From: Planctomycetota bacterium
GTDB taxonomy: Bacteria > Planctomycetota > Brocadiia > Brocadiales > Bathyanammoxibiaceae
Reading direction: 5' to 3'
Length of the DNA stretch: 50,416 nt
Assembly (NCBI GenBank): GCA_023261505.1
Contig: JAHFOV010000008.1
Location: 1-50,416 of the forward strand
The translations under genes were made by a program, and so were the position numbers. Shown here piece by piece: positions 1-23,484 of the stretch. Numbering within the stretch: position 1 is the first letter of the stretch; the number at the start of each line of letters is the position of its first letter. The notes below the pieces were generated by a model. That model saw only the letters and a program-made list of their open reading frames with translations. It was not told the origin of the DNA and did not search any database.

Positions 1-51
1 CTCAGCAAGCAGGAGCTGCAAGACTTGGTGGAATTTATGAAGGCCCTCTAA
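1..51 (+). CDS. C-terminal end of a dihaem cytochrome-c-peroxidase-like protein, probable hydrazine synthase gamma subunit (partial)
   Basis: The window opens inside a gene; the last 16 codons read LSKQELQDLVEFMKAL and then TAA. This ending (acidic helix, D-L-V-x-F-x-K/R-A-L) is typical of dihaem cytochrome c peroxidase/MauG-like proteins. In anammox bacteria the gamma subunit of hydrazine synthase belongs to that family and its gene lies next to the alpha-subunit gene, which is what follows here. The identification as gamma subunit is inferred from this position and the short tail; no haem motif is inside the window. Confidence 0.55.
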   Translation, partial: LSKQELQDLVEFMKAL

Positions 52-60
52 AAGAAAATC

Positions 61-91
61 AAGGAGAGGGGTAAAAATCACCCCTCTCCTT
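61..91 (+). terminator. Strong hairpin between the CCP-like gene and hzsA
   Basis: A perfect 12-bp stem (AAGGAGAGGGGT paired with ACCCCTCTCCTT, 7-nt loop) begins 9 nt after the upstream stop codon. No T-run follows, so it may act as an mRNA 3'-end stabiliser or processing site that adjusts subunit ratios rather than as a full terminator. No convincing sigma-70 promoter is visible between it and hzsA. Confidence 0.5.
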
Positions 92-192
92 GTCATAAGA
101 ATCGAGGAGAGTTCTAAAGGGAAGCTGCAACGCTAAGTCCACCTTGGTGGATAAAGTGTTAGGTTGCAACTGAAAGGAGGAGCAAGCTAGCA

Positions 193-2646
193 ATGAAGCA
201 CAAGTTATTTAGATTAGCCATAGCCACTTTTTTTGCAGTAGGGCTAGTGGCGCTCATAGTCCCGGGCCAGGTCTGGGCTGATAACGTGATGGTTGGAGGC
301 CCTAAGCCTGGAAAAGCCCTGTGGACGGATTATTGGGGAACCTCTAGGGAAATACAGGGTAACGTAACGCAGATTATCTTTACTCAGTCACCCAAGACAG
401 CTACGGGCGATCCCTACCACAAGTATCCCAACTATATCCCTGAAGGAAGCCGTATAGCATGTTTGGATATCAATGCTAAGCAGGTAAAGGTGCTTACAGA
501 AGGTTTTTCTACAGCCTTTGATCCCTGCATTTATTGGGAGCCAAATAAACTTGTCTTCGCAGGGATAAAGAAGGGTTCTACTGGTGGGCCGCAGATATGG
601 GAGATGGGTATTGATGGTAGCAACCCACGTCAGCTTAGCGATCTGCCTGGTAACTGTCGTGGCCCCGTCTATTACGCTGCCGGTTCAATAGTGCCGGGAG
701 AAGGTAACATAGTATGGCGTGATAGATATTTCGAAGGTGACTGGAAGATACGAGGCAAGGTAGAGAAGGCAGGTTTAGTCATATTTGCCTATTCCCCCGC
801 AGGAGCGATGGATGAGTACCATAATAACTTCAGCTATCAGCTGTGGAGGATAGACCCGCAAGGTGGAAAGGTGATTGAAAGAATCACCGGTGCAAAGCTG
901 AGCGGCATCGACATGCCTGCCTTGAATTCTGTTGCAGACCAACTTACCTACAATATCAGTTCTGATTTTGACCCTTGGCTCACCAGGGATGGCAGGGTTG
1001 GCTATTCCAGTACTCAGGCTAACGGTCCCAGGAGGGAAGGAAAGGGCAGTGTAGCCCTATTTACCAACTACTGGGATGGTCAGTATAACCAGCCCTTCTA
1101 CGGAAACTGCGAAGGGGAAGGCGAGGCAAGTCATGCCAGGGTTCAGGCAAAGGAACACCCAGACAATATGGTCATTTTTGTTGAGGCGCCCTACCAGAAC
1201 TACGGAATTGGCCAGCTAGCAGCAGTAAGATACACTGCGCCTTTCCAGGAAAACTACTGTCAGATCACTAGTGGTAGCGGCTGGTACAGGAGTCCTTACT
1301 GCTTACCAGACGGAAGGATAGCAGTATCCTATGCCGAAAGGGGAGACTTTGGGCTATATTGGTTTGATTGTAAGAAGGGTGCCGCAGGCGAGCTCATCTA
1401 CGATGACCCCAACTGGAACGATCATCAGCCCACACCAGTGTATCCAAGGTACAGGACTCGCTGGAAAAACACCTTCAACGCTGGTAAGAACTTTGGCGTA
1501 ACAGTGGTGACCTATCAGCCCTTTGACCAGGTGAAGGTAGAAGGGTATCCTTCTTCATGGGGTACATGGTGCTGCTTTGATACCACCTACACTCCACCCA
1601 AGGGTTCTACTACCATCGGTGGCATAGAGGTAGGTCCATATCCCTGGCAGTTAGGGAAAGCCTTAAAGAAAGGGGATATAAAGGCCGTAAGGATTATAGA
1701 GGGTCTCAGATGTAACGAGCCAGATCCAAAGAGATTTGTTGTTGGCGCTGGTAGGCATCTGTTGGGCGGTGTCCGTTCTTCCAGCAACTCTGGAACCATG
1801 TTCCAGCAGAGGAGGATTATTGGCTACCAGTATGTAGAGGATGATGGCTCTATAGTTACTTCCAACCCCTCTGATGTATCCTGGTATCTACAGACTCTCG
1901 ATGACAGGGGTATGGCAGTTTGCACCCAGCTTACCTGGGAATGGCAGAGGCCCTATGGTGGTGTAATATGTGGTGGTTGTCACGACGGTTCCTACAGAGG
2001 TAGGGCATGGAAGAATACACATTTCAAGGCCCTGTATAATTGGTGGTATGATGACAGGAGCCACTACGATTCTCCATTCCCCTTTGCCTTCTTAAAGCTG
2101 GACAGGGACGGCAAATATGCAGGGGTAAGACATGGTGAGGATGTGGTGGTACCTGCCGACGTGTACTATGGTGGGCCATCCGGTACTACCTCACAGCCAG
2201 TAGAAGCCCTGACGGCTGACAAGAGGAGGACGGTTGACTTTAGGCGTGATATTCAGTCCATCATAGATTCTAAGTGTGCCGGTTGCCATAACGGCAGCAT
2301 ACCACTTAACCTGAGTGGTGGTTCCAAGCCTGTCGAAGTGGACGGCATTGCCGCCTTCAGCCAGGCTTACAATGGTTTGCTGTCACCGGAGGTTGGGAAA
2401 GACCCAATTCTGGGTGGAAAGTATGTTAACCCATCCAGCGCCAGGAACAGTCTACTTATTTGGAGGCTATATGAAGAGCCGTTAAGCGATTTTGGTCCTG
2501 GACATGGCGTCTTCGCCGCCGAAGGAAGGGTTCTCCATAATAAGTTCCTTACCAACGATGAAAGGTATCTCTTAGTGGAGTGGGTAGATCTTGGATGCCA
2601 GTGGGATAATATCCCAGGGCCTGACTTCTATCCTGGAGTCAGATAA
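193..2646 (+). CDS. hzsA: Hydrazine synthase alpha subunit (HzsA)
   Basis: Hydrazine synthase condenses nitric oxide and ammonium to hydrazine in the anammoxosome; the alpha subunit carries the proposed active-site haem. The 817-residue product has a signal peptide (residues 1-29, ending VWA), a TolB-like beta-propeller region, and two c-haem sites: C593-G-G-C-H597 and C695-A-G-C-H699. Tyr601 lies four residues after His597. In the known HzsA structure a tyrosine at this spacing ligates the first haem while the CxxCH histidine helps bind zinc. Cys306 is a candidate for the distant zinc-ligating cysteine. Two stretches that I recall as conserved in HzsA are present: YFEGDW at 179-184 and SHYDSPF at 623-629. 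Length matches the family (about 810). The ribosome site AAAGGAGG is at 173-180. The CCP-like gene end upstream and the HAO-like gene downstream support the call. I am confident of the family; the residue roles come from recalled structural literature. Confidence 0.93.
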   Translation: MKHKLFRLAIATFFAVGLVALIVPGQVWADNVMVGGPKPGKALWTDYWGTSREIQGNVTQIIFTQSPKTATGDPYHKYPNYIPEGSRIACLDINAKQVKVLTEGFSTAFDPCIYWEPNKLVFAGIKKGSTGGPQIWEMGIDGSNPRQLSDLPGNCRGPVYYAAGSIVPGEGNIVWRDRYFEGDWKIRGKVEKAGLVIFAYSPAGAMDEYHNNFSYQLWRIDPQGGKVIERITGAKLSGIDMPALNSVADQLTYNISSDFDPWLTRDGRVGYSSTQANGPRREGKGSVALFTNYWDGQYNQPFYGNCEGEGEASHARVQAKEHPDNMVIFVEAPYQNYGIGQLAAVRYTAPFQENYCQITSGSGWYRSPYCLPDGRIAVSYAERGDFGLYWFDCKKGAAGELIYDDPNWNDHQPTPVYPRYRTRWKNTFNAGKNFGVTVVTYQPFDQVKVEGYPSSWGTWCCFDTTYTPPKGSTTIGGIEVGPYPWQLGKALKKGDIKAVRIIEGLRCNEPDPKRFVVGAGRHLLGGVRSSSNSGTMFQQRRIIGYQYVEDDGSIVTSNPSDVSWYLQTLDDRGMAVCTQLTWEWQRPYGGVICGGCHDGSYRGRAWKNTHFKALYNWWYDDRSHYDSPFPFAFLKLDRDGKYAGVRHGEDVVVPADVYYGGPSGTTSQPVEALTADKRRTVDFRRDIQSIIDSKCAGCHNGSIPLNLSGGSKPVEVDGIAAFSQAYNGLLSPEVGKDPILGGKYVNPSSARNSLLIWRLYEEPLSDFGPGHGVFAAEGRVLHNKFLTNDERYLLVEWVDLGCQWDNIPGPDFYPGVR

Positions 2647-2670
2647 TAAGAGTGTTGTTGTAAGTGGTTA

Positions 2671-2712
2671 AAAAAGGCTGGCTGGGTTTGTAAGACCAGC
2701 CAGCCTTTTTGT
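2671..2712 (+). terminator. Rho-independent terminator after hzsA
   Basis: A 15-bp perfect stem (AAAAAGGCTGGCTGG with CCAGCCAGCCTTTTT, 10-nt loop) ends in a run of five T. It lies 24 nt after the hzsA stop, so hzsA and the HAO-like gene are probably separate transcripts. Confidence 0.85.
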
Positions 2713-2738
2713 TTAGAGTGAAGTTCAACAAAATAATC

Positions 2739-2766
2739 TTGACAGTACTTATATTGTTGGTATAAT
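2739..2766 (+). promoter_or_regulatory. Sigma-70-type promoter of the octahaem gene
   Basis: TTGACA (2739-2744) and TATAAT (2761-2766) are both perfect consensus with a 16-bp spacer. The transcript would have a leader of about 150 nt before the ATG at 2921; I see no ORF in the leader. A promoter this strong fits a gene whose product is needed in large amounts. Confidence 0.75.
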
Positions 2767-2920
2767 TTTTTTCTCGTTTTAGTGGGAAAGACAGCTTGCA
2801 GAAACTAGGATAATCAGAAAGGGGGAAGATACGATTAACAATTCAAAAAAAGAAATATTGGTAACAGAATTTGGTCTTTGTCTTGAGGGTGAACTAACTT
2901 AGAAAGGAGAAGAAGGCTGC

Positions 2921-4594
2921 ATGAACAGGTTTAAGGGTTCATTAGTTATTGTTCTGCTGGCCATGGCAGGGTTCTTTCTGCTAGAAAGCCATGCTGTCTT
3001 TGCAGACCCTGATCCTGCGACTTTCCAAGAAGTAGCCTCCCAGGTATTTGGTCAGGGTGTAGGAAAGTGTGATACGGGAGACCTTTACATCTTTGGACTT
3101 ACCTCTAATTTCGTCCCCCCGGAGTATGTAGACGGTAGGGGGCCCTATAAATCGTTCTTTAAATTTCTACCTGTGGTAAGGTGGTACGACCCCGAGAACT
3201 ATTTTGTGAACAAAAATAGTGTGGAAGGGGTTTACAAGGGTGAAGAGTGCGTGCTGTGCCATTCTGTCCAGACTCCTACCATAGTGAAGGACTGGAAGGC
3301 TAGCGGCCATGGCAATCCTAGGCCAACTGAGGAGGTAGCCAAGCAGTACTATCTAGGAGACCATAATGCCATTGCTCAGAAAACGGCGGAAGTCGAGAAG
3401 CGTATCGGCCAGGAGATAACTGTAGTAACATGCGATAAGTGTCATGGTAACGATCATCAGAAGCTTCGGATGCCTACCTGGCAGGTTTGCCAATCCTGTC
3501 ATCCTGAGCAAACAACAGGACACAGGAGTGGTGGGTTAGGTTCTCACACCCATGCCTTCACTGTAAACGTGCTAGAGTTTTCATGGCACGTAGGTAAGCC
3601 TCCAGAAGAAGTGAATGGATGCCAGCAGTGCCATGCAATTGTAGAGAACCGTTGCGATGGCTGTCATACCAGGCACAAATTTAATACAGCAGAGTCCAGG
3701 AAGGGTGCTGCTTGCAGGTACTGTCACCTTGGTGTGGACCATAGAGAATGGGAGATGTACAACAGCTCTATGCATGGTATCCTCAACGAAGAGGAAGCCT
3801 CTATCCAAGACTGGACCAAGCCTGTGAAGAAGGGTAATCATAGGGTACCAGCCTGTGCCTATTGCCACATGCAGGATGGAGACCATAACGTGCAGAGATT
3901 CGGTACCCAGTATAGCGACATGGGCATGTTCGAGATGGACCGTGGTGCCCCCAAACATGCCGCAAAGAGGGAAGCATGGATAAAGAAGTGTATGGATTGC
4001 CACTCCCCCAACTTTGCTAAAGACCAGCTACGGGCTATGGACTATGGCGTAAGGCTGAGCTTTACCAAGTGGCGTGAGGCAGCGAACATCATTGTCGGCT
4101 GTTACCTGGAGGGGATATGCGATCCAATGCCCACTGACCTTGCTCCAGATTGGTACGGGCATTATACATTTAGCTTACTGCCCACTGGTGACCCAAGGTT
4201 CTACAACGTCTCCGAAATAGAGAGGTTAGGTTTGGAGTTCATCTGCTACCAGACCGCTCAGGTGTATAAGGCCCTTGCCCATATGGCCATTTATAATGCT
4301 ACTTATGGTACAGGCGGTGCCTTTGAGCAGGACAGAATGCTGGTACAGATAAAGGCTGAAGCTAGCCGTTTGAAGAGGTTCAAAGCCATTGAACAGAAGA
4401 TCGGAATTGATTACAAGCCACCGGAATTCTGGAAACATGGCGAATATACTGACCTCCTTATCGGCTGGAAGCGAAAAGAAGGGGACGTGGATCTAGCTTG
4501 GTTCAAGAGGACCGATATACCTCACAGGCATAACGCCGATTCTGGTCTAGAGGCTCACATCCCTGAAGTGCATGGTAGCGAAACGCATAAGTAA
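2921..4594 (+). CDS. Octahaem hydroxylamine-oxidoreductase-like protein (HAO family)
   Basis: This is a 557-residue exported multihaem cytochrome: signal peptide 1-28 (ending VFA), then eight CxxCH motifs starting at C110, C171, C190, C234, C245, C265, C312 and C357. The number, the order and the closely spaced fourth and fifth sites are those of the HAO family. Anammox bacteria have about ten such paralogues, covering hydrazine dehydrogenase, hydroxylamine oxidation to NO and suspected nitrite reduction. Members that oxidise carry a tyrosine after the eighth haem that crosslinks to the catalytic haem; Tyr458 and Tyr462 (MAIYNATYGTGG) lie in the right region, but I cannot tell whether either is the crosslinking residue. 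There is no C-terminal membrane anchor. It has its own promoter and RBS (AAAGGAGA, 2903-2910) and directly follows hzsA. Which reaction it catalyses is open. Confidence 0.88.
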   Translation: MNRFKGSLVIVLLAMAGFFLLESHAVFADPDPATFQEVASQVFGQGVGKCDTGDLYIFGLTSNFVPPEYVDGRGPYKSFFKFLPVVRWYDPENYFVNKNSVEGVYKGEECVLCHSVQTPTIVKDWKASGHGNPRPTEEVAKQYYLGDHNAIAQKTAEVEKRIGQEITVVTCDKCHGNDHQKLRMPTWQVCQSCHPEQTTGHRSGGLGSHTHAFTVNVLEFSWHVGKPPEEVNGCQQCHAIVENRCDGCHTRHKFNTAESRKGAACRYCHLGVDHREWEMYNSSMHGILNEEEASIQDWTKPVKKGNHRVPACAYCHMQDGDHNVQRFGTQYSDMGMFEMDRGAPKHAAKREAWIKKCMDCHSPNFAKDQLRAMDYGVRLSFTKWREAANIIVGCYLEGICDPMPTDLAPDWYGHYTFSLLPTGDPRFYNVSEIERLGLEFICYQTAQVYKALAHMAIYNATYGTGGAFEQDRMLVQIKAEASRLKRFKAIEQKIGIDYKPPEFWKHGEYTDLLIGWKRKEGDVDLAWFKRTDIPHRHNADSGLEAHIPEVHGSETHK

Positions 4595-4622: not shown

Positions 4623-4670
4623 AGGAGGGTAGCGCCTGCCTGAGGTGGGTTATCTGCTACCCTCCTTTGG
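4623..4670 (+). terminator. Terminator-like hairpin between the HAO-like gene and trpB
   Basis: An 11-bp stem (AGGAGGGTAGC, 4623-4633, with GCTACCCTCCT, 4656-4666) is followed by TTGG then TTTT. The loop contains CCTGCCTGAGGTGG, a motif repeated inverted near 49522. It is most simply the terminator of the HAO-like gene; there is no Trp-rich leader peptide to support trp attenuation. Confidence 0.6.
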
Positions 4671-4693
4671 TTTTAAACATTGAAGGAGGAACA

Positions 4694-5914
4694 ATGAAGA
4701 TTACTACTAAGCCATCGGTAAAGGCGATATTACCCGATGAACGGGGACGCTTTGGCAAATTTGGTGGAAGGTACGTCCCTGAAACCCTTATGCCTGCCCT
4801 GGACCAGTTAGAACAGGAATATCTGAAGGCTAAAAATGATAAGAGTTTTCAAGAAGAACTTAATTATTATCTTAAAGAGTACGTTGGTAGACCTTCACCC
4901 TTGTATCTTGCCGAGAGACTGACTCGGGAGCTGGGAGGGGCTAAAATATACCTTAAGAGAGAAGATTTAAATCATACCGGTGCGCACAAGATAAATAATA
5001 CCATAGGACAGATATTATTAGCCAGGCGCATGGGTAAGAAGAGGATTATTGCGGAGACTGGGGCCGGGCAACATGGCGTGGCTACTGCCACGGCAGCCGC
5101 CATGTTTGGACTTCAGTGCGAGGTTTATATGGGCGAGGAGGACATGCACAGGCAGTCTCTAAATGTCTTCCGAATGAAACTCCTTGGTACTAAAGTTATA
5201 CCAGTAAAGACTGGTTCTCGCACTCTGAAGGATGCTACCAATGAGGCCCTGAGAGATTGGATGGCTTCGGTCAAATATACTCATTACATTCTGGGCTCTG
5301 TGGTAGGACCACATCCCTATCCTATGATGGTCAGGGATTTTCAGTGTGTTATTGGCAGGGAGGCCAAAGAGCAGATACTGGAAAAAGAAGGCAGGCTTCC
5401 TGATTATCTTCTTGCCTGTGTAGGCGGGGGAAGTAACTCTATTGGTTTATTTCACCCATTTTTGGATGATACAGAAGTTAAGCTGATCGGCGTCGAGGCT
5501 GGGGGAGTAGGTATAGGAGTCGGGGAGCATGCCGCAACCCTTTCTTATGGCAAGGTAGGTATCCTTCACGGAAGCCTTAGCTACGTACTCCAGGATGAGG
5601 ACGGTCAGACCTTGCCCGTGCACTCTATGTCTGCTGGTCTTGATTACCCTGGCGTTGGCCCTGAGCACAGCTACCTAAAGGAGACGGGAAGGGCTCAATA
5701 TGTTTCTGCTACAGACCAGGAGGCCCTTGAGGCCTTCCAGAGGTGTGCTCGTTCTGAGGGTATCATTCCAGCCCTCGAGGCAGCCCATGCCCTCTATTAT
5801 GCCATGAAATTCGCTCCTACCCTGAGTAAGGATACCCTTATGGTGATCTGCCTCTCCGGAACAGGGGATAAGGATGCCTTCCAGGTGGCGGACAAGTTAG
5901 GTGTGAAGATATGA
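4694..5914 (+). CDS. trpB: Tryptophan synthase beta chain
   Basis: TrpB condenses indole with L-serine to tryptophan using pyridoxal phosphate, in complex with TrpA. The 406-residue product shows the N-terminal [14 protein letters not shown] signature, the PLP-lysine stretch GAHKINN (Lys near residue 88), the catalytic ETGAGQHG loop and the phosphate-binding GGGSNS motif. The start at 4694 is chosen over an in-frame GTG at 4667 because AAGGAGGA sits directly before it. The family length is about 400. trpA follows after a 110-nt gap; no other trp gene is in the window. Confidence 0.97.
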
Positions 5915-6024
5915 GTATGTCCGCCTTGGGTGGATATGCCTAAGGTTCGCCAGAGGCGAATCTGTTCGCCACACAGATTGGCGAATCCGCCGATTATTTT
6001 GGAGGACCTAAGGCATGACATAAG
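5915..6024 (+). other. trpB-trpA gap with REP-like inverted repeats and a three-codon mini-ORF
   Basis: The gap holds a short hairpin (TTCGCC-AGA-GGCGAA, near 5948-5962) followed by a second TTCGCC...GGCGAA pair (near 5965-5990), and a GTCCGCCTTGGGTGGATA motif related to one at 137-152. GGAGG at 6001-6005 is well placed for ATG-ACA-TAA (6015-6023), whose stop lies one base before the trpA ATG. Translation might reach trpA by re-initiation, but the mini-ORF could be chance. Confidence 0.4.
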
Positions 6025-6834
6025 ATGAATAGGATTGACCAGAAGTTCCAGGAGCTAAGGCGTAGAAGAGAACCTGCCTTTATCCCCTTCATAACTGCTG
6101 GAGACCCGGATTTAGAGACCACAAGGGGCCTTATCCTTGAACTTGAGAGGTGCGGGGCAGATATTATAGAGCTGGGCATTCCCTTCTCAGACCCTATTGC
6201 TGACGGACCCGTTATCCAATCCTCCTATTACAGAGCCCTCTCTAGGGGTCTAAGGGTCTCTCAGGTATTCGAATGTGTTAAAGGTTTAAGAAGGGAGACT
6301 GAGATTCCTATTGTGGCAATGGTCTCCTACAGCCTTGTCTTTAAGGGAACACCTGAGAATTTTATCGCTAGGGCGCAGGAGGCCGGGTTTGATGGCGCTA
6401 CCATTCCGGACCTTCCCATAGAGGAGAGCGAGGTGGTGCTAAGGTCAGCCACAGAGAAGGATTTCAGGATAGTCTGCTTTGTTGCCCCTACCACCACGCC
6501 TGAAAGGATGTCCAGGATAGTTCAGTGTACACAGGGGTTTCTTTACTATATCTCAGTAGTGGGTATAACGGGAGTAAGAGATGCCCTTCCTCCAGACATG
6601 AGAGAGAACATCCAGATGTTAAAGGGTATGACCGATAAGCCAATTGCCCTGGGCTTCGGGGTCTCTACCCCTGAGCAGGCCAGAGCTGTAGGGCAAGTGG
6701 CAGATGGCGTCATCGTAGGAAGTGCCATTATTAGAGAGTTGGAAAAGCACATGGATAAACCAGTTGCTGAGAGAATAAGGGTCGTAGGGAAGTTTGCTTC
6801 TAAACTAGTGGCAGGGGCTAAAGGAAGGTTGTAA
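6025..6834 (+). CDS. trpA: Tryptophan synthase alpha chain
   Basis: TrpA cleaves indole-3-glycerol phosphate to indole, which is channelled to TrpB. The 269-residue TIM-barrel protein carries IPFITAGDPD, the catalytic-glutamate segment IIELGIPFSDPIADGPVIQ (Glu near 50, Asp near 61) and the phosphate-binding GFGVSTPEQA and GVIVGSAI loops. Length is normal. The nearest GGAGG is 19 bases upstream, farther than usual, because a mini-ORF lies between. Confidence 0.96.
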   Translation: MNRIDQKFQELRRRREPAFIPFITAGDPDLETTRGLILELERCGADIIELGIPFSDPIADGPVIQSSYYRALSRGLRVSQVFECVKGLRRETEIPIVAMVSYSLVFKGTPENFIARAQEAGFDGATIPDLPIEESEVVLRSATEKDFRIVCFVAPTTTPERMSRIVQCTQGFLYYISVVGITGVRDALPPDMRENIQMLKGMTDKPIALGFGVSTPEQARAVGQVADGVIVGSAIIRELEKHMDKPVAERIRVVGKFASKLVAGAKGRL

Positions 6835-7021
6835 GGCCAATTTTTGTAGCTTGCTCCTCATTCCATAGGTCTACCGGATCACACATCTAGAGAATCCAGG
6901 GATTCATAAAATGCTAAATGCTAACCAATAAGGCCTGACAAGTATCCTATTGTGTCTTTGCCTGTTTTTACGTTTTTTTGGATATAGAGGCGGTGACAGA
7001 GTTCAAGGGGACGTTTTTGAC

Positions 7022-8218
7022 ATGCTAGAAAATGCCGTAGAGATAACCCCAGGGGTATACTGGGTAGGGGCTATAGATAAGGAGAGGACTATCTTTGATA
7101 GTTTTATGAGCCTCCCTTATGGTACCACTTACAATGCCTATCTCATTCAGGGAAAAGAAAAGGTGGCGCTGGTGGATACAGTTCACCCTGAGTTTACCCA
7201 TATCCTTTTGAAAAAAATTTCAGAGGTGGTGAATCCTGAGAGTTTGGATTTTGTGATAATGAACCACGCCGAGCCCGACCATGCTGGCTCGCTATCAGCA
7301 ATTTTATCCGTAGCTAAGAAGGCTAAGCTCATAGCTACTAAAAAGGGGCTTGGCATGGCAAAGGTTTTTTACGATATCCTAGAGGAAAAGGGCGAGGCCG
7401 TGACTGATGGTAATACACTTGCGCTTGAGGGCAAAACCCTCAAGTTTATAGATGCCCCCTGGTTACACTGGCCTGAGACCATGCTTACCTATTGTGTGGA
7501 GAATAAAGCTTTGTTCAGTTGCGACTTTTTTGGTGCTCACGTGGCACCAGAAAGTCTCTATGAGGAAGAGGTAGGAGACATCGTTCTGGCCGAAGCCAAG
7601 AGGTATTATGCCGAGATAATGATGATTTTCTTAAATCCGGTGAGGAAGGCGCTGGGTAAGCTGGAGGGATTAGATATAAAATTAGTAGCCCCTAGCCACG
7701 GGCCGGTATGGCGTAAGCCCGATAGAATTCTTAATGCTTACAAAGGATGGGCTATTGGACCGTTGAGACCCAAGGTGGTAATAATCTATGTTTCTATGTA
7801 CGGTAGTACCGCCGAATTGGAAAAGTCTATAGTAGAGGCGATAAGGGCGGAGGACGTGGAAGCAGTGGCCTACAACATGCTTAATGCCGATGTATCCCAC
7901 GTAGTGCAGGAACTGGTGGATTCCAGTGCCATAGTCTTTGGCTCCCCATCTTTTTATGGGGGAGTACATCCCAGGCTAGCTTCTTCGGTTGAGCTAATAA
8001 GGACAATAAAGCCCAGGGGGAAATTGGTGGCCGTCTTTGGTTCTTATGGTTGGGGCGGGGGTGCAGCCAAAGAGATTAAGGCAAGACTCCAACCCGCTGG
8101 TTTTGAAGTAATAGACCCTCTAGAGATACAGGGCCCGCCAAGAATGGAAAGCTTACAAAAGGCAAGCTCCTTTGGCAAGACCATTGCAAAAAGGGTCAAG
8201 GAATCTCTGTCCGCCTAA
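7022..8218 (+). CDS. A-type flavoprotein / flavodiiron protein
   Basis: Flavodiiron proteins reduce O2 to water or NO to N2O using a non-haem diiron site and FMN. The 398-residue product has the N-terminal metallo-beta-lactamase-like domain with iron ligands H82-x-E84-x-D86-H87 (NHAEPDH), a further His in WLHWPETM, Asp in SCDFFGAH and His in PSHGPVW, then a flavodoxin domain starting near residue 255 (VIIYVSMYGSTAE). There is no rubredoxin fusion. The ATG at 7022 is preferred because alignment to the family begins there; an in-frame upstream extension would add 24 unrelated residues. In an anammox cell, oxygen scavenging and NO handling are both plausible. Confidence 0.92.
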   Translation: MLENAVEITPGVYWVGAIDKERTIFDSFMSLPYGTTYNAYLIQGKEKVALVDTVHPEFTHILLKKISEVVNPESLDFVIMNHAEPDHAGSLSAILSVAKKAKLIATKKGLGMAKVFYDILEEKGEAVTDGNTLALEGKTLKFIDAPWLHWPETMLTYCVENKALFSCDFFGAHVAPESLYEEEVGDIVLAEAKRYYAEIMMIFLNPVRKALGKLEGLDIKLVAPSHGPVWRKPDRILNAYKGWAIGPLRPKVVIIYVSMYGSTAELEKSIVEAIRAEDVEAVAYNMLNADVSHVVQELVDSSAIVFGSPSFYGGVHPRLASSVELIRTIKPRGKLVAVFGSYGWGGGAAKEIKARLQPAGFEVIDPLEIQGPPRMESLQKASSFGKTIAKRVKESLSA

Positions 8219-20031: not shown

Positions 20032-23000
20032 TTAGTTATTCCTCTTGTATATTTCTTTTATGATTTTTTCGTATTCCTCAGGAATATGAGCCTTTTTTAT
20101 GGCCTCTTCTGCTTCCTGCTCACTTGAAAGCCTGGCATTAGGGTCTTCCTGCACAGTAGGGCTGTGTTGCTTAAACTGTGCGGCACCTTCAATCACCTCC
20201 TGGCCTGTGGAAAGGGTCTCCCGTTTGCCCTTGGTGGTCCCCTTATCAGCTTTTAACCTTAATTCAAAACTTTTTTCTCCAGGAGGACCCAAGTCTTCCT
20301 CTTTTTCGGAAAAGAGCTTGCCTCCGGGTTCGCTTCCAGCCCCCACACCTCCAATCTCTGAACCCGTCTCAGGAGAATAGCCCTTTTCACTTCCAGTTTT
20401 CTCTCCTTCCGCAGATGTCCCTTGTTCTAGCTGTCCCGCTCCTAATTCTTCTCCTTGCGGACTTGAAGATAATCCAGCTCCTTCTTCCGTTTTTTCAACC
20501 TGTCCTTCCTGTGTTTGCCCCTGACCGAGCTGCTGTCCCTGGCCAAGCTGCTGACCCTGGCCTGGCTGCTTCCCCTCACCTTGGGAAGCCTTCTGCTCAT
20601 TTCTACTTGAAGAGGATGGGCCAGTTTGAGAGGGCGTGTTTTCATTTTGTCTAGCAGCCTTTAGTTGCTTCATGTCATAATCGATATCTTTTAAAGTCTT
20701 CTGGATGTTCTTTCGTAATTGGGCTATGTCTTTTGTACCGGTACCTGCACCTTCATCTCCTCGGGCCATTTTTTCACCTGATGTGGGTTCTTTACCCTCC
20801 TGGCCAGACATATTCCCCTGGCTCTTTTGTCCAACTTTATTGTTCTCAGTACCCTCTTCCTTACCAGGAGATTTACCTGAAGCTAATCCTTTTGTTGCAG
20901 AATCAGTGCCAGTAGATAACCCTCCTTTCTCTTCAATAGGAGCCTGGCCACTTGGAGAGGATTGTTTGCCAGTTCCCAGCTGTTTTCCTTCAGCAAGGGA
21001 TGTACTGCTGCCGGCCATTCCTTTTTCACCGGATGTTCCTCCAGAACCGCTTTCCTGTCCTGTAGATCCTTTTTGCTCACCATAACCCTTTTCAGGTACG
21101 CCCCCACCTCCGCTGGAGGCATTCGAATCGGCTCCCCTCCCTGCAGGGCTACCGGGACTTGAGGCTGCACCTTCTGCGGCTCCTTTCCCCCCTCCGCTTG
21201 CACCAGAGGTCGGAGGTGCTTCTCCTGAGGCGGATTGCTTAGAAGACCCCTGGGATTTGCCTTTTTGACCTCCGGCCTTTTCAGGACTACTGCTGGCCCC
21301 TCCCTGCTGACCAGAGGTAGACTGGCTCTGGCTTGTCTGAGCGAGTTCTCTGCCCTGTCCGCCTGAGGCGGATTGACCAGTTTCCTGTTCACCTGATTGA
21401 CTAGTTCCTTTTTCGCCTGAGGCCGACTGATCGGTTCCCTGTTCGCCTGAAGTGGACTGACCTGGTTGTTTTTGAGAAATATCTTGTTTCTGCCCCTGTC
21501 CTTTGCCACTTGCACCTTGGGCAGCAAATTTTTCTCTTTCAGATTGTTCTCCCTGGCCTTCGCCACCTTTACCAGTTCTCTCCTTTTCTGTTCCTTCGGA
21601 CTGGGCAGGTACGCCTTTTTCGCTTCCCGTACTAGCGAGTTCTTGCGCATAATTACCAAGATCTTGAGCAAGTTTCTCTTGCTGACCATAGCCTCCTTGT
21701 GCCTCCTGACTATTGCCTGCCCTTCCCGTGGATGCCCCTTTCTGAGCACCTTGCTCTTGGCCCGCCTTTGATGAACTACCAGCCTGAGAAGTACCTCCTG
21801 CACCTGACTGCCCTTCTGAGGCAGACCGTTCTTTACTACTGGCCTGTAGGCCTGAGGTGGATTCTGATGAGCCCTGACCTTCGCTCTTTGTGCCTGCCTG
21901 TCCTTCCTGGCCTCCAGCTTTTTGAGAAGACGAAGAGCCAGAAGGTCCCGTTTGCCCTTGGTCTTGTCCTTGCGAACCTCCGCCAGAAGAACCCTGTGCC
22001 ATTTGTTTCTGCTTGTTTATTTCGCCTGGGCCAGTCTTGCCGGGCTGCTGGCTACCTGCCGCTGACTGGCTTGATTTGCCGCCTTTCTGCATTCCACTTG
22101 ATTGACCTTCGTTAGTGCCTCCAGTGCCAGCCATTTGCGGAGCGGAACTGCCTCCTCCTTGTCCGGAGGGCTGCGGAGAGGAACTTGCCTGAGATGAGGC
22201 AGACCCTCCAGAGGTTGAGGCAGCACTGGAAGTAGAGCTTCCTTTCCCACCCGAAGTAGGACTGGATTGGCCACCAGTCTGCATTCCACTTGAGGAGGAC
22301 TGACCTTCATTAGTACCTCCAGCACCAGCCGTTTGCGGAGAGGGACTGCCTCCTCCTTGTCCGGAGGGCTGCGGAGAGGAACTTGCCTGAGATGAGGCAG
22401 ACCCTCCAGAGGTTGAGGCAGCACTGGAAGTAGAGCTTCCTTTTTCACCTGAAGAAGGTTGAGAAGAATCTTTCCCACTTCCAGAGGAGGATGATTTTTG
22501 CTCACTTCCGCTCTGCCCTGAGTTACTAGCATTTCCGCCATCACTTCCACTTCCTCCTTGCCCACTACCACTCATTGAGGGTGGTTGTAACATTGGAGGT
22601 TGGGGCATTGGTGGCGTGGGCGGGCGGAGCATAGGAGGCATTAGTTTGGCCAGCAGAGACTGGATGGAGTTCATTTTCTTTTCTATGTTTTTTTGAGTCT
22701 CTTCTTGTTTTTGCTGTTGCTTCCTCTCCTGTTCCTTTTCTGCCAAACGACTAAGAGGTTCAGGGGTAGATTTGTTTTCTTTTTCTTTCGCATTCTGAGG
22801 TTGTTGCTCTTTGCCGGCTTTAGGCTGATTAGCTTCTTCTTTTTTCGATTCCTCCTGTTGCTTTTCAGTTTTAGAAGCTTGTGCGTTTGAAGCGGTTTGA
22901 CCCTTTTCTTCTGCTAACTGGTCAAACCATGGAGTAGAAAATATCCATTGAGGGGGAGATTCTCTGTAGGCCAAGAAGGGGTTTTCCTGACGCAAGTTGG

Positions 23001-23484
23001 GCATTAAGAGGAGTAAGAGTGCCAGGAGTATAGCCAATGGTATCACGGCTGCCAGCGATTTTGGTACTCTACTAGGCAGTGCCTTTTGGATGTTTTTATC
23101 GTTAAGCTTATTAATGACGTCCTCTACCAGTGCGGAGGAAAATTTTGAGGGATTCGGCTCTTTTATACATTCCATTGCGGTGACGAGACGAGCTTTTAGA
23201 TTTAAACGACGGTCTATATAAGTGGTAGCTTTAGATAGGCTTATCCAACGTCTCCGTAGCTCTGCAATTGCTATACCTAGATAAGCGAAAAAGGGGATGA
23301 AAAATAGCAGATAAAGAAGATCGTAGCCTCCGACGATTTTTCTTATCAGGATTGCAGCAACAGCCAGGGAAAGACCAACGAGAAAAACATTTATTATAGT
23401 CCTGAAAAGGGCTCGGTAGTTGAAACTGCGCTGGACCTTGGCTATCCCAAGTAATAGTCTTTTATAATTATTGTTATTGGACAT
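20032..23484 (-). CDS. Giant membrane protein with about 700-residue Gln/Ser/Gly-rich low-complexity region (DUF4175-like N-terminus)
   Basis: The 1150-residue protein has three membrane helices in the first 165 residues (about 27-46, 52-70, 143-162). From about 195 to 930 it is almost pure Gly, Ser, Gln, Lys, Glu, Ala and Pro. A short helical segment, DIAQLRKNIQKTLKDIDYDM, interrupts this before further low-complexity sequence and a conserved-looking C-terminus (AIKKAHIPEEYEKIIKEIYK). The N-terminus resembles DUF4175/TIGR02302-type proteins that occur in MoxR/BatA clusters. The disordered part probably lies outside the inner membrane and could be a scaffold or condensate-forming linker. A 66-residue unit is duplicated in tandem. 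It is tightly packed in the operon (10 nt from the gene before, 0 nt to moxR), which argues that the whole ORF is real. Confidence 0.85.
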   Translation of the reverse strand: MSNNNNYKRLLLGIAKVQRSFNYRALFRTIINVFLVGLSLAVAAILIRKIVGGYDLLYLLFFIPFFAYLGIAIAELRRRWISLSKATTYIDRRLNLKARLVTAMECIKEPNPSKFSSALVEDVINKLNDKNIQKALPSRVPKSLAAVIPLAILLALLLLLMPNLRQENPFLAYRESPPQWIFSTPWFDQLAEEKGQTASNAQASKTEKQQEESKKEEANQPKAGKEQQPQNAKEKENKSTPEPLSRLAEKEQERKQQQKQEETQKNIEKKMNSIQSLLAKLMPPMLRPPTPPMPQPPMLQPPSMSGSGQGGSGSDGGNASNSGQSGSEQKSSSSGSGKDSSQPSSGEKGSSTSSAASTSGGSASSQASSSPQPSGQGGGSPSPQTAGAGGTNEGQSSSSGMQTGGQSSPTSGGKGSSTSSAASTSGGSASSQASSSPQPSGQGGGSSAPQMAGTGGTNEGQSSGMQKGGKSSQSAAGSQQPGKTGPGEINKQKQMAQGSSGGGSQGQDQGQTGPSGSSSSQKAGGQEGQAGTKSEGQGSSESTSGLQASSKERSASEGQSGAGGTSQAGSSSKAGQEQGAQKGASTGRAGNSQEAQGGYGQQEKLAQDLGNYAQELASTGSEKGVPAQSEGTEKERTGKGGEGQGEQSEREKFAAQGASGKGQGQKQDISQKQPGQSTSGEQGTDQSASGEKGTSQSGEQETGQSASGGQGRELAQTSQSQSTSGQQGGASSSPEKAGGQKGKSQGSSKQSASGEAPPTSGASGGGKGAAEGAASSPGSPAGRGADSNASSGGGGVPEKGYGEQKGSTGQESGSGGTSGEKGMAGSSTSLAEGKQLGTGKQSSPSGQAPIEEKGGLSTGTDSATKGLASGKSPGKEEGTENNKVGQKSQGNMSGQEGKEPTSGEKMARGDEGAGTGTKDIAQLRKNIQKTLKDIDYDMKQLKAARQNENTPSQTGPSSSSRNEQKASQGEGKQPGQGQQLGQGQQLGQGQTQEGQVEKTEEGAGLSSSPQGEELGAGQLEQGTSAEGEKTGSEKGYSPETGSEIGGVGAGSEPGGKLFSEKEEDLGPPGEKSFELRLKADKGTTKGKRETLSTGQEVIEGAAQFKQHSPTVQEDPNARLSSEQEAEEAIKKAHIPEEYEKIIKEIYKRNN
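22089..22458. repeat. Tandem duplication inside the low-complexity gene (period about 198 nt)
   Basis: A block at about 22151-22243 recurs without mismatch that I can see at about 22349-22441, 198 nt further on. The flanks are also alike, with a 6-nt length difference near the left edge (22089 versus 22281). In protein terms it is two copies of a roughly 66-residue unit containing SSPQPSGQGGGS and GGTNEGQSS. Near-identity at DNA level implies a recent event. Confidence 0.85.

Follow-up and report, generated by a model that had tools for sequence, protein, structure and literature searches.

A canonical hydrazine synthase gene cluster in Candidatus Bathyanammoxibiaceae, with a probable second, solitary copy of hzsC

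Introduction

The enzyme that defines anammox is hydrazine synthase (HZS). Among the closest described systems is that of Kuenenia stuttgartiensis (kuste2859-2861; PDB 5c2v), in whose alpha subunit, HzsA, Cys303 is presumably a zinc ligand. His587 of the same subunit is also a zinc ligand and Tyr591 is the proximal ligand of haem alpha-I (PMC12607021). Extra, near-identical hzs genes are already known: K. stuttgartiensis MBR1 carries a partial hzsBC copy (PMC5854607) and Brocadiaceae carry pairs of identical hzs operons (PMC12758564). In Candidatus (Ca.) Bathyanammoxibiaceae, the HZS genes have been found to lie on different contigs (PMC12758564).

The names of the two smaller subunits need care. 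Older Kuenenia papers designate kuste2860 (353 aa) as hzsB and kuste2859 (386 aa) as hzsC. The closed Kuenenia genome shows the 353-residue open reading frame (ORF) to encode a diheme protein and the 387-residue ORF a propeller, so that the older names are swapped relative to NCBIfam. We follow NCBIfam: the propeller is beta (hzsB) and the diheme protein is gamma (hzsC).

The window analysed here is a stretch of 50,416 nucleotides (contig JAHFOV010000008.1, forward strand) from the planctomycete assembly GCA_023261505.1, referred to as G000; other genomes, contigs and loci are given G, C and L numbers. The genome very probably encodes a canonical three-gene HZS together with a second, solitary hzsC that broke the assembly, and the extra hzsC genes found across the order would be cluster remnants homogenized by gene conversion. 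The features on which this account is built are collected in Table 1.

Table 1. Location of the hydrazine synthase genes, their neighbours and related features
Feature	Location	Strand	Basis or remarks
3' end of hzsC (gamma; 16 codons and stop, LSKQELQDLVEFMKAL)	window 1..51	+	gamma C-terminus match
13-bp stem-loop directly 3' of the hzsC stop	window 60..92 (stems 60-72/80-92)	+	fold
hzsA (hydrazine synthase alpha subunit, 817 aa)	window 193..2646	+	ORF, profile matches, alignment, tree
Intrinsic terminator past hzsA (15-bp stem, 10-nt loop, T-run)	window 2671..2712	+	sequence and fold
Sigma-70-type promoter match, 12/12 (TTGACA-16-TATAAT), ahead of the HOX gene	window 2739..2766	+	
Octahaem HAO-like protein of HOX (kustc1061) type, 557 aa, 8 CxxCH	window 2921..4594	+	
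trpB-like	window 4667..5914	+	named from sequence, no library scan
trpA-like	window 6025..6834	+	named from sequence
FprA/flavorubredoxin-like flavodiiron protein	window 6950..8218	+	
hzsC repeat pieces, second copy	G000:C37:18636-20023, C86:47776-47966, C10:2-958		differing signal peptide and flanks
Brocadiaceae solitary hzsC loci	L100, L101, L102, L103, L105, L109, L110, L111		kinase, sigma-54-type regulator, -24/-12 site
HSBeta396F/742R sites	L067:261-280, L067:626-645; vs L100:4710-5094		operonic and solitary diheme genes, Brocadiaceae

The alpha subunit

The initial annotation had proposed an 817-residue HzsA, and the profiles agree. The protein scores 1518.6 bits against the alpha-subunit NCBIfam equivalog NF052339 (cut-off 800) and 79.7 against PF18582 (cut-off 26.6), and the solved Kuenenia alpha subunit matches its residues 32-815 with 1221 bits. 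The haem alpha-I site consists of CGGCH at residues 593-597 (C593, C596, H597) with Tyr601, and the haem alpha-II site of CAGCH at 695-699 (C695, C698, H699). When 25 distinct HzsA sequences are aligned, all seven residues are invariant and Cys306 is kept in 24. C593, C596, H597, Y601, C695 and C306 align with Kuenenia positions 583, 586, 587, 591, 685 and 303. Cys306, both haem sites and Tyr601 thus fall where they had been predicted to, and the four-residue step from His597 to Tyr601 is indeed the spacing of the Kuenenia tyrosine-ligated haem.

The full-length alpha subunit, both haem sites, the equivalents of Tyr591, His587 and Cys303 and the beta-gamma-alpha gene order are all shared with K. 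stuttgartiensis. In contrast, the window protein is about 65% identical to the Kuenenia subunit and has a 9-residue insertion near residue 468, and the gene following hzsA in the window encodes HOX. Homology with the solved Kuenenia enzyme suggests that gamma would reduce NO to hydroxylamine, which alpha, at its Tyr601-ligated haem, would condense with ammonium to form hydrazine.

HZS-like TolB/cytochrome fusions do occur in non-anammox planctomycetes, at 25-30% identity (PMC12758564), but the chance that the window protein is one of these is negligible: it groups with anammox HzsA sequences, to which it is 57-89% identical, it exceeds the equivalog cut-off, and the gene order at the locus is beta-gamma-alpha, not alpha first. 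A search of 343 planctomycete genomes returned, outside the order, only two partial HzsA matches (32-35% over about 180 residues). Judged from its sequence, the gene is a genuine hydrazine synthase alpha gene, ordinary in kind, which adds a member to a known family.

The hzs cluster and its surroundings

A CCP-like tail upstream of hzsA had been attributed to the gamma subunit, and the first bases of the window do match the hydrazine synthase gamma C-terminus, beyond a generic CCP-like resemblance. Beta and gamma genes are both present in the genome, hzsB on C37 (666 bits; cut-off 560) and hzsC on C37 and C10 (695 bits; cut-off 625). They are separate genes; a beta-gamma fusion such as that of some Scalindua is ruled out, as hzsB has its own stop. 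The join of hzsB, hzsC and hzsA across contigs is made by a 120-base overlap, the common hzsC end and synteny in L004. Hydrazine dehydrogenase (HDH) is encoded on C112 (1206 bits; cut-off 900) and not in the hzs cluster, where it lies in L003 and L004, and the genome encodes several further HAO-like proteins.

The operon is probably hzsB-hzsC-hzsA, with the HOX gene behind it as a probably separate transcription unit, since an intrinsic terminator and a perfect promoter match lie between hzsA and the HOX gene. Both elements recur in L002 and L016, and a single transcript spanning hzsA and the HOX gene is accordingly unlikely. The HOX protein scores 832 bits to 6t5e and 826 to 4n4j, which we take to be kustc1061, vs 335 to HDH (6hif), and it stays under the HDH equivalog cut-off.

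The order hzsB-hzsC-hzsA-hox-trpB-trpA recurs in Brocadiaceae and Ca. Bathyanammoxibiaceae, and an FprA-like gene also follows trpA in L002, L003, L004 and L016. The trpB-trpA pair (window 4667-6834; L002-L019) stands behind hzs-hox in Ca. Bathyanammoxibiaceae and in one of the two Brocadiaceae hzs clusters. Elsewhere in the window, positions 20032-23484 encode a 1150-residue low-complexity protein rich in Ser, Gly and Gln, which adjoins MoxR- and VWA-type genes.

Between hzsC and hzsA, the initial annotation had noted a strong 12-bp hairpin and suggested that it may set the subunit stoichiometry. The hairpin is real and strong (-24.5 kcal/mol; z = -4.6 against 200 shuffles), with a stem of 13 rather than 12 bp. 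Strong stems of different sequence occupy the same position in L002 (z = -4.2), L016 (-2.4) and L003 (-3.2). The position is common to G005, G006 and G010 of Ca. Bathyanammoxibiaceae, and a hairpin after hzsC is present in four of the six members of this family; no stem beyond chance was found after hzsC in L004, in G007 or in most of the Brocadiaceae tested. It is not an intrinsic terminator of hzsC, because it has no T-run on the plus strand and the terminator-like match there belongs to the minus strand. The hairpin may influence how the mRNA is processed, or how stable it is, between hzsC and hzsA; a setting of subunit stoichiometry would go further than these folds show.

Affiliation of the window organism

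In the HzsA tree, the window protein groups with L002 and L016 (support 100/100), within a clade of six genomes that also contains L004 (100/100). Both L002 (NC_groundwater_1467) and L004 (RIFCSPLOWO2_12_FULL_50_35) are listed among the members of Ca. Bathyanammoxibiaceae (PMC9723696). HzsA identity is 88-89% to L002 and L016, 72-76% to other Ca. Bathyanammoxibiaceae, 62-66% to Brocadiaceae and 57-62% to the remaining anammox bacteria. On this phylogenetic evidence the organism is a member of Ca. Bathyanammoxibiaceae, a deep-branching anammox family that is already published. The earlier suggestion of a possibly divergent lineage went further than the evidence, for the family already has its name (PMC9723696). 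The window resembles L002 and L004 both in HzsA (72-89% identity) and in the neighbouring hox, trpB, trpA and FprA genes. Unlike the published members, its genome forms a separate genus (g1) in the genome set used.

A second hzsC in the window's genome

Contigs C37, where hzsC follows hzsB, and C86, where it does not, both end in the 120 bases with which C10 starts, and upstream of these bases they encode different signal peptides. C10 starts within hzsC and exits into DUF167 and YggS genes; the window exits into hzsA, and its bases 1-54 recur unchanged at G000:C10:908-961, in the collapsed hzsC repeat. Two ways into the gene and two ways out of it imply that the genome holds two hzsC copies. 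The hzsC repeat would have broken the assembly, which is why the window contig begins inside a broken hzsC; repeated hzsC would likewise explain the separate contigs reported for the HZS genes of this family (PMC12758564). The copy number is read from the assembly fork, with overlaps of 54 bases on the 3' side and 120 on the 5' side, and from relatives. As far as the assembly resolves, the mature part of the solitary gene would be the same DNA as that of the operon copy.

Could each cell have one hzsC, the fork being an artefact of a strain variant or of a foreign contig binned with this genome? G000 is a draft of 147 contigs in which no contig spans the solitary copy, and a reductase gene on C86 lacks a close relative in other Ca. 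Bathyanammoxibiaceae genomes. Nevertheless, the estimated contamination of G000 is 0.62%, and a gene flanking hzsC on C10 has a counterpart in G005, of the same family, with 79% identity. The signal peptide of the solitary copy (MSRSLVYL...) is similar to the one in G006 (MCRSLVYL...), as that of the operonic copy is to the one in G005. Moreover, a single contig of G008 holds an entire solitary copy, with the operonic start elsewhere, and this arrangement recurs in closed Brocadiaceae genomes. An artefact is therefore highly improbable, and we retain two hzsC genes in G000. The part of PMC9723696 considered here makes no mention of a second hzsC.

Solitary hzsC genes across anammox bacteria

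Besides G008, solitary hzsC entries or exits were found in G006 and G007 of Ca. Bathyanammoxibiaceae; G009 is a weaker case, as this genome seems to contain two strains, and no solitary hzsC was found in G003 or G020. In eight Brocadiaceae genomes, several of them closed, a solitary hzsC lies 3' of a histidine kinase and a sigma-54-type regulator. A sigma-54-type -24/-12 site, TGGCA[CT]-N5-TTGC, precedes the gene in 8/8; a slightly looser pattern occurs 23 times in the 747 kb of fetched loci, duplicates and those eight included. The solitary locus of Ca. Bathyanammoxibiaceae has no sigma-54 site and regulator of the Brocadiaceae type, and its neighbours differ among genera; its origin may therefore be a separate one. 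The place of the G000 solitary locus is not conserved in relatives: in G005, YggS-DUF167 is followed by an isoleucyl-tRNA-synthetase-like gene.

Other loci hold larger or broken pieces. In G035 (L112, G035:C7:83000-93000) the solitary locus is degraded, with both hzsB and hzsC broken, and some Scalindua-type genomes (G045, G059, G048) have hzsB-hzsC, separate or fused, without hzsA. The extra hzsC genes across the order appear to be left over from duplicated hzs clusters in which hzsA, and usually hzsB, has been lost. In one such Scalindua-type locus, L106 (G059:C67), a tandem pair of hzsB-like genes stands ahead of hzsC at 1543-3946, without hzsA. Interrupted hzsA/hzsC copies occur at G045:C26:46372-49839 (stops) and G028:C1:1876477-1878883 (two frames), and may be pseudogenes or sequencing errors.

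These genes have a precedent in the MBR1 copy (PMC5854607) and the Brocadiaceae operon pairs (PMC12758564), which are likewise extra and near-identical. The MBR1 copy, however, is a tandem 7-kb segment, whereas the solitary hzsC lies apart, at an older, orthologous locus that has a regulator of its own. The search covered openly licensed literature, and the solitary gene may have been described before. A hidden hzsC duplicate can explain why anammox draft genomes, including those of Bathyanammoxibiaceae, break at the hzs operon, and it matters more than the window hzsA itself.

Gene conversion between hzsC copies

The mature part of the solitary hzsC is 95.2-99.9% identical to the operonic copy of its own genome (96-99.9% at the Brocadiaceae solitary locus, 100% for the tandem Kuenenia copy) and 84-95.8% identical to any foreign copy; in every genome tested the own operon copy is the closer. 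In a maximum-likelihood tree, solitary and operonic genes pair by genome in G014, G016, G027, G033 and G059, and in G026 and G028, which are closely related, the pairing does not resolve. Constraining the eight Brocadiaceae solitary copies to one clade is rejected by the AU test (lnL difference 1107, p = 5e-117). The regulators of the solitary locus, by contrast, form a single group that tracks the species (support 80/91), with a single origin in 95% of the bootstrap trees. An old, orthologous locus with a young-looking coding sequence points to gene conversion, and recent independent duplication in each genome is ruled out for Brocadiaceae by the orthologous flanking regulators. As judged from these trees, the hzsC copies of Brocadiaceae undergo concerted evolution by gene conversion, a process for which we found no report in the openly licensed literature on hydrazine synthase. 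The differences that do exist between solitary and operonic copies are mostly synonymous (pS 0.071, pN 0.007), which indicates that the solitary gene is not decaying.

Possible roles of the solitary gene

The most likely role of the solitary hzsC, at about even odds, is to provide additional gamma subunit that is separately controlled. It is rather unlikely that the gene is a passive remnant, intact only because gene conversion overwrites it. Conversion is evident, one copy is degraded (G035) and two genomes have none (G003, G020), all of which speaks for such a remnant; yet conversion of the mature part would not keep a sigma-54-type site in diverged flanks (8/8), nor an intact and different signal peptide.

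The solitary gene also raises the question of whether gamma lives outside the HZS complex. The proposed NO-reducing haem resides in gamma (PMC12607021), and gamma alone might reduce NO to hydroxylamine, for example feeding or balancing the HOX reaction. The solitary genes are intact, are under purifying selection and have their own signal peptide, to which those of Brocadiaceae add a sigma-54-type site and regulator. Such a stand-alone enzyme is nonetheless unlikely, because the mature protein differs little from the complex subunit and would be expected to join the complex. The fuller proposal, in which a separately regulated gamma gene encodes an enzyme that forms hydroxylamine apart from HZS, its mature part held near-identical to the complex subunit by gene conversion, is distinctly doubtful. 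Supply of extra gamma subunit thus remains our preferred reading.

Consequences for PCR surveys

The widely used qPCR primers HSBeta396F/742R are named for hzsB (PMC9899793). In most Brocadiaceae tested they match the diheme gene perfectly, and the solitary copies with it. Since these "hzsB" primers amplify the diheme hzsC, solitary copies are counted too. Against the window genome there are three forward and two reverse mismatches, and in L002, L004 and L092 two to three forward mismatches; Ca. Bathyanammoxibiaceae in which the site is present, with their 2-3 forward mismatches, may therefore be under-counted by "hzsB" qPCR. Closed Brocadia-type genomes such as G014 offer three primer targets for two hzsA.
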